The position numbers and the translations under genes are program-made. The notes beneath the pieces were generated by a model. The model was not told the origin of the DNA and made no database searches. It saw only the letters and a list, made by a program, of their open reading frames with translations. This document shows positions 1 to 3,781 of a stretch of DNA of 48,003 nucleotides, piece after piece. Positions within the stretch are counted from its first letter, which is position 1; every line of letters begins with the position of its first letter. The DNA is from an uncultured Rubritalea sp. (GTDB lineage Bacteria; Verrucomicrobiota; Verrucomicrobiia; Verrucomicrobiales; Akkermansiaceae): positions 1-48,003 of the forward strand of contig CAKZNV010000048.1 of NCBI GenBank assembly GCA_937132085.1, given 5' to 3'.

Positions 1-14
1 TAACAACCTATATT

Positions 15-902
15 ATGAAACATATTATCGCATCTAGCCTAGTAGCTAGCTCATTCTTATTCACCTCATGTGGTGACAAAAAAGTCGTTGAATCCAAAGC
101 CGACGCAGCAGTAGCAGAGTCAGTAGCAGAGACTACTCCAGTAGAAGCAGCTCAAAACTGGCAAAAAGATCTCACTGGTGGCCAAGTTTCTAACCTCTGG
201 AGCTCACTTTCAGCAGATTACCAAAGCGATCTCAACAAGCTAGCGAACAACCTTGGTGATAAAGTAGACAGTGAAGTTTACAATGAAGCAATGACCACTC
301 TTGGTTCTGTTTCTAACTTGCTCAAAAGCAAGAAGACAATGATCCTCGAAATCTTAAAAGACAATGCACCAGAAGGCAAAGAAGATGACCTTGCTAAAAT
401 TGAGCAAAGCTATGATTCAATCGTTGGTATCATCAACACTATCGCTACTTCAGATGCAAAAACTACTGAAGGCTTGAAAAGCATGGACCTCGGCAAACTC
501 CTCGGAGACCTACAGGGACACACTAAGGAACTATCTAAGCTATCATCACTTGCTGGTGACAAATTTAAGAAGTTTCAGGAAGTTAAATTCAGCCTCGTTT
601 CTGAGTCTGGTGACTCTGCAGCAATCAACGTAACATCTGAAGGCAACGATAAGGAAGTCAAACTCATCAAAAAAGATGGTAACTGGCTTCCAGAAGACAT
701 GGTCAACAAATGGCCTGAGATGATGGTAGAAGCGAATAAAGCGATCGCTGAAATCGGCGATATGAAGCCAGAACAAAAACAACAAGCACTCATGGGACTC
801 ATGATGCTGAAGTCTACTGTTCAGAGTCTTGAAAAAGCTAAAACTAAAGAAGACATGATGCAAACCGTTCAAGGTCTCATGGGTATGTTCGGAATGAAAT
901 AA
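15..902 (+). CDS. Putative lipoprotein of unknown function
   Basis: A 295-residue protein with a lipoprotein signal peptide: a hydrophobic stretch at residues 4-17 followed by a lipobox ending in Cys19 (FTSC), so it is probably lipid-anchored in the envelope. The mature part is mostly helical and rich in Lys, Asp, Glu and Ala. Residues of about 195-235 read like a compact beta-rich module (alternating hydrophobic strands ending in KKDGNWLPEDM), reminiscent of the small folds found in secreted DUF-type proteins, but I do not recognise the family. A clear intrinsic terminator follows, so it is the end of its transcription unit. The ATG follows an A/C-rich leader without a Shine-Dalgarno site. 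The start is inside the window, but any upstream gene is not visible. Confidence 0.8.
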   Translation: MKHIIASSLVASSFLFTSCGDKKVVESKADAAVAESVAETTPVEAAQNWQKDLTGGQVSNLWSSLSADYQSDLNKLANNLGDKVDSEVYNEAMTTLGSVSNLLKSKKTMILEILKDNAPEGKEDDLAKIEQSYDSIVGIINTIATSDAKTTEGLKSMDLGKLLGDLQGHTKELSKLSSLAGDKFKKFQEVKFSLVSESGDSAAINVTSEGNDKEVKLIKKDGNWLPEDMVNKWPEMMVEANKAIAEIGDMKPEQKQQALMGLMMLKSTVQSLEKAKTKEDMMQTVQGLMGMFGMK

Positions 903-931: not shown

Positions 932-959
932 AAAAGCCAGAGCTTGCTCTGGCTTTTTT
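932..959 (+). terminator. Intrinsic terminator after the lipoprotein gene
   Basis: A near-perfect hairpin (AAAAGCCAGA pairing with TCTGGCTTTT around a GCTTGC loop) runs directly into a T tract about 30 bases after the stop codon of the lipoprotein gene. Confidence 0.9.
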
Positions 960-2172: not shown

Positions 2173-3459
2173 ATGTCTCGAATTACTCAAGCTGTTGTCC
2201 GTGTTGCCAATGTCCTTGTAGATAAGTTAGAGCGGACTGCTGGGTTTGTGAATCATTGCTGGAAGCGAAACCCTAGCTGGGGCTATGAGCTTATTTTACA
2301 GCTGGCGAATGCACATGAAGGTGAGGATCGCGTTTTAGCTGAACGATTTCTCAATGAAGCTGAGGTAGCTGGTTGGCTTTTGATTAAAAGGCATCGTTAC
2401 AGTGCTGTCCCTGAGAAACTGGCGTTAGTTTGTAGTGATGAGGCCATTCTGTATGAGTCACTTTATTCTCTCACAAATCGACGATCTCCTAGAGACAGAA
2501 GAACTGAATTAGCCCAGATTTTCACTGAGTATGCAGGACTGAAAACTACTCGATGTGAGACAGAACATAATCGCCACTCGATCTACGGAGAGCTGTGGGT
2601 GAACTTTTGTCAACGTTATGCAGATCAATTGACTACACTAGATGAATCAAAGTTACTTTGTCGTGGACTTAAGTTAGTGCAGCTAGAAGAGCTATTGAAC
2701 GATGTCTTTCAGCTACTGCATGCAGATCAAGCATCCCATTTGAGAGAGGCCAGCACATTATATTTAGGCGACTCTAAGAAGCTGGAAACAAATCAAACAG
2801 TCTATCTGAAGTGGCTAGCTGAGATTACAGGAGGAAGGATTACAAGCTTCGATGACTTAGGGATTCAAGATAAGCACCGGACTATTACTTTGTGGGGAAA
2901 CTGGACTTTGAAGTTTGATTCAAAAGAGAACAAACTTTGTGAGCTAGGAAACTTTGAATTACCACTGCGTATTAGTCAGCGAGATATTTCTACAGCTACT
3001 CTCAGACACCCTGACATCCCAGTAATTACTGTGGAGAATAAAGAATCTCTGGAGAGCTGGGCGCTGGCTAAACCTAATGCATTATTGATATCAAGTGGTG
3101 AACTTGGTGGGTTTTCACATAGTGCAGTGATCGATTTTATAAAGTCATTACCAAGTTCTCTTAGACTATTCCACTGGGGCGATACTGACCCCGCTGGTTT
3201 TTCTATTCTAGCCTCACTCCGAGAGAGATCTGGACGAATGATTGAATCGATAGGAATGGAGTATGTAGCTGAAATATCAAATAATTCGGTAAACCCAGAA
3301 ACCTTATCAAATTTGGAACGTCAAGAAATAACGAGGCTGTTAGAGTCGAGATTCATTACGGAATCTGAGCGTAACTCTCTAAGTGAAATGCTTGAAGCTG
3401 ATAGTAAAGGTAGTTTCGAACAAGAAGGACGATCAATCCCCCAGTTACCGAACTCTTAA
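2173..3459 (+). CDS. Solitary JetD-like (DUF2220) Toprim-fold protein
   Basis: A 428-residue protein whose C-terminal part (about residues 275-420) matches the DUF2220 domain of JetD, the nuclease subunit of Wadjet plasmid-defence systems. Visible motifs are VENK with Glu288, a GGF segment near residue 312, FHWGDTDPAGF with Asp337 and Asp339 (the Toprim Glu...AspxAsp metal site shared with Spo11/TopoVI-A), and a C-terminal LL...E...FEQEG tail (around 415-420). The N-terminal 250 residues are helical and charged and may be the DNA- or partner-binding half. In known Wadjet operons JetD sits with JetA, JetB and the SMC-like JetC; none of these is present here. A terminator-like hairpin follows. 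The family call is from recalled motifs; nuclease activity and a defence role are inferred. Confidence 0.7.
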   Translation: MSRITQAVVRVANVLVDKLERTAGFVNHCWKRNPSWGYELILQLANAHEGEDRVLAERFLNEAEVAGWLLIKRHRYSAVPEKLALVCSDEAILYESLYSLTNRRSPRDRRTELAQIFTEYAGLKTTRCETEHNRHSIYGELWVNFCQRYADQLTTLDESKLLCRGLKLVQLEELLNDVFQLLHADQASHLREASTLYLGDSKKLETNQTVYLKWLAEITGGRITSFDDLGIQDKHRTITLWGNWTLKFDSKENKLCELGNFELPLRISQRDISTATLRHPDIPVITVENKESLESWALAKPNALLISSGELGGFSHSAVIDFIKSLPSSLRLFHWGDTDPAGFSILASLRERSGRMIESIGMEYVAEISNNSVNPETLSNLERQEITRLLESRFITESERNSLSEMLEADSKGSFEQEGRSIPQLPNS

Positions 3460-3720: not shown

Positions 3721-3723
3721 TCC

Positions 3724-3779
3724 AACCTAACAACCTAACAACCTAACAACCTAACAACCTAACAACCTAACAACCTAAC
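3724..3779. repeat. Tandem repeat, seven perfect copies of AACCTAAC
   Basis: Seven uninterrupted copies of the 8-bp unit AACCTAAC. The array ends two bases from the stop codon of the minus-strand chitinase-like gene, so on that strand it reads GTTAGGTT directly after the stop. Uninterrupted 8-mers suggest recent slippage. Confidence 0.95.
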
Positions 3780-3781
3780 AC

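Follow-up and report, generated by a model that had tools for sequence, protein, structure and literature searches.

The DNA analysed here, which we call the window, is the entire contig CAKZNV010000048.1 (C48; 48,003 nt) of assembly GCA_937132085.1, a draft genome of an uncultured Rubritalea sp. (4.46 Mb in 254 contigs, 98.71% complete with 2.58% contamination). Close to its start is a single open frame on the plus strand that runs from an ATG at 2173 to a stop at 3459 and encodes a protein of 428 residues; Pfam and PADLOC profiles, alignments and a structure model identify it as JetD, the nuclease subunit of type I Wadjet. Two small plus-strand genes precede it in the list of open reading frames, one of 159 residues with a hydrophobic N-terminus (1027-1506) and another of 204 residues (1534-2148), neither belonging to a known family. 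Considering that the first ends 27 bp ahead of the second and the second 24 bp ahead of jetD, it is likely that the three genes form one transcription unit. Further upstream, on the same strand, lies a lipoprotein gene (15-902), and the first 77 nt of the window (1-77) are an assembly overlap that exactly matches two other contigs, C73 and C102. A terminator-like hairpin of 11 pairs followed by a T-rich run (932-957, plus strand), found by pattern scan, would end the lipoprotein transcript and keep it apart from the jetD unit, but it is a weak candidate because the stretch contains three such sites where 2.1 are expected by chance; no promoter-like site was found between this hairpin and the 159-residue ORF.

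The sequence-only reading of this locus had described a lipoprotein and two small proteins of unknown type upstream of jetD, and this description stands: none of the three ORFs scored above the curated cut-offs of Pfam or NCBIfam, and their PADLOC matches were weak. For the 204-residue ORF there was no match in Pfam, NCBIfam or PHROG, none above weak in PADLOC and none in the plasmids or viral contigs searched; a search of the plasmids and viral contigs with JetD likewise gave no lead. Among the 11 other genus members, three (G003, G006 and G011) have homologues of the lipoprotein, but in different surroundings, so that lipoprotein synteny was discarded as a pointer to an empty site. Downstream of jetD the same reading had noted a repeat-filled gap, and there is indeed an 8-bp tandem repeat (CAACCTAA) at 3723-3780 (plus strand). 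This repeat was considered, and rejected, as the cause of a contig break at the end of contig C65, described below, since its 24-mer occurs only at 3729-3776 in the whole 4.46-Mb genome and the jetC continuation differs from it.

The assignment of the jetD product rests on Pfam JetD_C (PF09983; 49.3 bits against a cut-off of 22, E 4.8e-13) and on the PADLOC model JetD1, which it matches over residues 59-418 (89.2 bits, E 7e-26). The NCBIfam profiles gave no match to it, and the best hit of a phmmer search of PDB sequences was an unrelated ATPase (E 0.22). A contig scan with JetD matched three distant loci, and the same-genome search returned the window gene as the single JetD. The JetD-like DUF2220 motifs that had been recognised from the letters alone are as described: VENK with E288, WGDTDPAGF with D337 and D339, and an FEQE tail with E416 and E418. 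In an alignment of the window JetD with 12 relatives (24-30% identity to it), from which the JetDs of G017 and G350 were left out, E288, D337, D339, E416, Q417 and E418 are all invariant. When the comparison is made with 14 other JetDs, the window protein retains 24 of the 30 positions that are invariant in them, the catalytic acids included, and has six altered. The FEQE tail is not among these 30 positions, because the JetD of G017 has no FEQE in its frame; that protein lies within a 1135-residue open frame (L023:6901-10308), possibly the product of a frameshift or a fusion. In MksG, the glutamates E349 and E351 are conserved and have been put forward as possible nucleophiles (PMC10123090); the spacing of E416 and E418 is the same, and the two pairs may be equivalent.

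The structure prediction that had been proposed for this protein, with JetD and Spo11/topoisomerase VI A as the comparison, was made with AlphaFold2 from the 13-sequence alignment (mean pLDDT 81.9, pTM 0.56). Foldseek placed MksG of Corynebacterium glutamicum first (8b7f, E 1.5e-9, TM-score 0.29-0.32), followed by topoisomerase VI A. With VIA-align, the model matches over residues 10-428 both JetD of P. aeruginosa PA14 (7til; Z 14.3, rmsd 8.1, 337 residues) and MksG 8b7f (Z 13.5, rmsd 10.1), two proteins with which the window JetD shows 13-18% identity. As the rmsd to these two structures is 8-10 Å, the placement of the domains in the model, that of the N-terminal CAP domain included, is not fixed; together with the low TM-score, it would mean that the relative domain placement either differs or is badly predicted. 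The Toprim part alone fits far more closely, with an rmsd near 3: residues of about 280-428 superpose on Toprim domains such as 2fcj (Z 10.5, rmsd 2.8). Topoisomerase VI A (9o0g, Z 17.4; 1d3y, Z 17.1) and Spo11 (8urq, Z 15.0), which match in the Toprim and the neighbouring domain, score above JetD 7til; the sequence models PF09983 and JetD1, however, put the window protein with JetD. The CAP domain of JetD/MksG is described as lacking the 5Y-CAP catalytic tyrosine (PMC10586767, PMC10123090). The earlier assignment was to fall if the Toprim fold were missing or the motifs were not conserved among homologues, and neither is the case: on sequence and model together, this is a JetD with an intact-looking active site and a Toprim fold.

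Within the window no JetA, JetB or JetC was seen near jetD, and the sequence-only reading had concluded that the gene was an orphan without JetABC. The rest of the genome tells otherwise. A profile search for DUF4194 (JetB) located contig C65, whose minus strand carries jetA (489 aa), jetB (235 aa) and a jetC that is truncated by the contig start. JetA matches PF18982 (1.4e-38) and PADLOC JetA1 (1.1e-34), JetB matches PF13835 (2.8e-15) and JetB1 (3e-16), and JetC is an SMC protein that matches AAA_29, SbcC Walker B and JetC1 (1.9e-164). All four proteins, JetD1 included, thus fall in PADLOC subtype 1, and a type I JetA kleisin, JetB KITE and JetC SMC are present in the same genome. A search of the genome with PF11855 (DUF3375) matched nothing, but the absence of JetA that this null result might suggest was dismissed, the JetA of this genome being a member of PF18982. 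When continued through either C73 or C102, JetC is complete at 1118 aa, with identical last 45 residues. Its Walker A, SGGE and Walker B motifs are found in all 20 aligned JetCs, with G007 deviating at the residue that follows SGGE.

C65 begins with exactly the 77 bases that end C73 and C102, and each of these two contigs, when reverse-complemented, terminates in the 77 bases with which C48 starts. A 26-mer from the C65 end and a 30-mer from the C48 start each occur at three places, solely at these contigs. Given the exact overlaps and the unique end k-mers, reverse-complemented C65, then reverse-complemented C73 or C102, and then C48 form a closed bubble, which from its sequence is best read as two strain haplotypes. 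The two paths are 79% alike over their first ~880 nt and 90% over their last 214 nt and have otherwise no long match, and both run into the one jetD contig. Consequently, jetD is no orphan and JetABC is not missing: the locus order is jetA-jetB-jetC, a spacer of 8.4 or 9.4 kb and jetD, all on the same strand, the distance between the stop of jetC and the start codon of jetD being 9429 bp through C73 and 8401 bp through C102.

The spacer differs between the two paths in its cargo. On C73 an AbiEi/AbiEii pair accompanies a 1514-residue STAND-like ATPase (Pfam matches under the cut-off; PADLOC PDC-M54A, 3.8e-22). On C102 there are a DUF6119 protein, a YhcG/DUF1016 nuclease (PADLOC PDC-S02) and an HSP90-like ATPase that matches HATPase_c_3 (4.7e-26), PADLOC REase_II (8e-19) and, weakly, the Shedu C-terminal domain; close to the end of this contig there is a short open stretch that we take to be an HsdM relic. 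Both cargo contigs have a G+C content of 41%. They represent alternative defence cargoes of 6.5-7.5 kb (L036 on C73, L037 on C102) with like flanks that occupy a single site, bounded by jetC and the lipoprotein gene, and this site seems to be a defence hotspot that is polymorphic between strains.

For jetD, the search across the phylum that the sequence-only reading had proposed was run. With the window JetD as query (P0001), 14 of 58 relatives and 18 of 387 phylum genomes were matched, the window genome being counted in both, and PF09983 matched 13 of the 58. Together these searches gave 22 distinct genomes; G386 and G397, with weak N-terminal matches, are outside the context count, which therefore covers 20. 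In 17 of these 20 jetC is beside jetD (13 with a clear type I JetC and four with a weakly matching one), including G057 (L032:146-4683), where jetC adjoins jetD and jetA and jetB were unmatched in the 12 kb examined. The three in which it is not are the window genome and two further members of its order, G043 and G052. In G052 the 127-kb contig C134 bears jetD at 53 kb (L024:9070-10488), and jetC is found at 57-60 kb of a 119-kb contig, this genome's own C65 (jetABC, L085). G043 has jetD on C137 (L025:8976-10190) and jetC on C43 (jetABC, L084), with 17 kb of contig beyond jetC.

JetC was found in 21 of the 31 genomes chosen, and within the genus in six of 12, the G002 copy being cut by a contig end. 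By contrast with the window genome, the 11 other genus members gave no JetD with either P0001 or PF09983, although five of them have JetC. These five genomes are 82% (G002) or 92-95% complete (the others), so that jetD could have been missed in one or another of them, though this is unlikely for all five. In G004, G007 and G010 jetA-jetB-jetC are all present. G011 has a full-length JetC (L089:9331-12687) that is 83% identical to that of the window genome; neither jetA nor jetB was found in the 19 kb around it, and it is perhaps a lone SMC subunit. A search of the 4 kb after jetC with a JetD profile and tblastn gave chance scores only, in seven other genomes (the five genus members, G043 and G052) and in both of the window genome's own haplotypes, and the idea of a jetD relic straight after jetC was discarded; the two positive controls scored 515 and 558 bits, their JetDs being themselves in the profile.

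The JetC and JetD trees place the proteins of the window genome differently. The genus JetCs, that of the window genome included, form one clade that is sister to the G023 group (support 99/100), in a tree that leaves out G002 and two outsiders. The JetD tree, which leaves out L002 and G039 (whose JetD is cut by a contig end), has the window JetD branching outside both JetD clades (support 88/89), on a branch of 1.6-1.9 changes per site (tree value 1.62). Placing it at the position that would match JetC was neither rejected nor supported by the AU test (p = 0.078). For a quantitative comparison, JetC distances were used as a yardstick in 14 further genomes whose JetC and JetD are both near-complete, among which the two sets of distances are well correlated (r 0.934). 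The window JetD is too distant given its JetC, with a mean z of 3.5 against the 14 others; the mean z of each of these is between -0.54 and 0.61, values that are somewhat shrunk since their spread includes the window genome. The JetD distances of G043 (-0.54) and G052 (-0.33) fit their JetC distances, and these two therefore look like true jetD-jetABC pairs that have moved apart. Base composition is also uneven in the window genome, where jetD has 42% G+C and jetABC 51-55%, a difference that exceeds those of the eight contiguous loci for which it was determined. The excess divergence fits fast change and a foreign source equally, and the window JetD may have been acquired late or have a relaxed function.

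We consider it fairly probable that the window jetD and the jetABC of C65 constitute a type I Wadjet that has been split, its nuclease acting in trans. Since 8401 or 9429 bp and other genes separate jetC from jetD, the four genes are not contiguous, and we therefore speak of a split arrangement resembling Wadjet rather than of a canonical operon. With type I Wadjet (JetABCD / MksBEFG / EptABCD) it shares the four subtype 1 subunits, the ATPase motifs and nuclease site, the gene order and the strand; it differs in that jetD is 8.4-9.4 kb from jetC, past the defence cargo and the lipoprotein gene, whereas the two are adjacent in 17 of the 20 genomes. The separation would result from the spot between jetC and the lipoprotein gene taking up exchangeable defence genes. 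In published accounts, JetABC extrudes circular DNA and stalls, upon which JetD cuts (PMC10586767, PMC12287153, PMC10123090). Here, jetABC would encode a MukBEF-like SMC motor that extrudes small circular DNA until it stalls, and JetD, made separately from what is probably its own transcription unit, in which the 159- and 204-residue ORFs may be co-transcribed, would dock on JetABC in trans and cleave the DNA through its Toprim site. This proposal builds on the gene identities, the intact catalytic and ATPase motifs, the Toprim fold, the overlap linkage and the two alternative cargoes; from these we infer that this JetD binds this JetABC, that it is separately transcribed and that the pair restricts plasmids. 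It is not the only case of a split jetD, as G043 and G052 show. Weighing against the proposal are the excess divergence and the deviating tree position of this JetD, its low G+C beside that of jetABC, its six altered invariant positions and the 11 other genus genomes in which no JetD was detected, five of them with JetC. The earlier reading holds only in part: the gene is a JetD outside a contiguous jetABCD operon, but jetABC is present in the genome, and unknown partners are not needed.

A bolder version of the split system, to which we would give only tentative credence, is that JetD is a detachable module: the JetABC of the genus would be a nuclease-free SMC complex, armed in trans by a distant jetD that was either gained or kept. 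If so, one SMC machine could alternate, within short spans of evolution, between working on the chromosome and destroying plasmids, and G043 and G052, with jetD on other contigs and a divergence matched to JetC, would be stable trans versions of it.

Alternatively, and in our judgement rather doubtfully, the JetABC of the genus organises the chromosome without any JetD, in the manner of MksBEF of P. aeruginosa, and the window jetD is a defence-island nuclease that was acquired apart, lies nearby by coincidence and acts on its own or together with different partners. The relatives are in keeping with this: like MksBEF and the JetD-less Wadjet I of Stenotrophomonas maltophilia, five of them have JetC and no detected JetD, three with jetA and jetB beside jetC, and the 4 kb after jetC holds no trace of jetD. 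So are the deviating G+C and excess divergence of jetD and the abundance of defence genes at the spot, as well as the published accounts that MksBEF of P. aeruginosa likely arose through JetD loss (PMC10586767) and that MksG cuts DNA independently of MksBEF (PMC10123090). However, a genome with an MksBEF-like complex would encode no JetD, and this one encodes one nearby, of the same PADLOC subtype and on the same strand, 8-9 kb apart in 4.46 Mb. Moreover, its catalytic residues are retained despite strong divergence, and a lone JetD reportedly cleaves DNA only when its concentration is artificially high (PMC10586767).

That the window jetD is in decay, a leftover of a former jetABCD operon that the insertion of cargo disrupted, and has ceased to work appears improbable to us. 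Its long branch and the 11 other genus genomes without JetD could be so explained, and the JetD-less Wadjet I of S. maltophilia has been called probably inactive (PMC11680222), yet the frame is open over its full length, the catalytic acids are kept along with 24 of the 30 invariant positions, the model has a mean pLDDT of 81.9, and both haplotypes lead to the same jetD contig. Finally, it is very improbable that the linkage is an artefact of mixed-metagenome assembly, with C65, C73 and C102 misjoined to C48 or foreign to it: although the genome is a draft in many contigs with some contamination, and probably binned, the 77-nt overlaps are exact at all four junctions, the tested end k-mers occur nowhere else, the two paths are alike beside the overlaps and JetC groups with the JetCs of its genus.

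JetD-free relatives of Wadjet are already known, from MksBEF of P. aeruginosa (PMC10586767) and Wadjet I of S. maltophilia (PMC11680222). In the open-licence literature on orphan, split or JetD-less Wadjet, to the extent that its text was available, there was no report of jetD in trans, nor a precedent for jetD beyond exchangeable defence cargo or, as in two of the relatives, on another contig; the available part of PMC7251935 adds nothing on such systems. The PADLOC authors do warn that a system may be divided by the end of a contig or by genes lying in between (PMC9252829). Split defence systems would escape co-localisation rules, and "orphan" defence genes at contig ends can belong to whole systems that were cut by assembly bubbles. 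How an SMC motor holds a self-harming nuclease in check is a question of current interest, and natural split systems, together with a genus that has the motor but no detected nuclease, offer pairs for probing what JetD needs and what JetABC does alone.

Two neighbourhood observations may be added. The neighbours of jetD in G043 include a protein with a Fic-like C-terminal domain and a restriction-type helicase. On C65 of the window genome, a phage-type integrase (PF00589; L020:18173-19366) lies about 12 kb upstream of jetA and may mark a mobile island.
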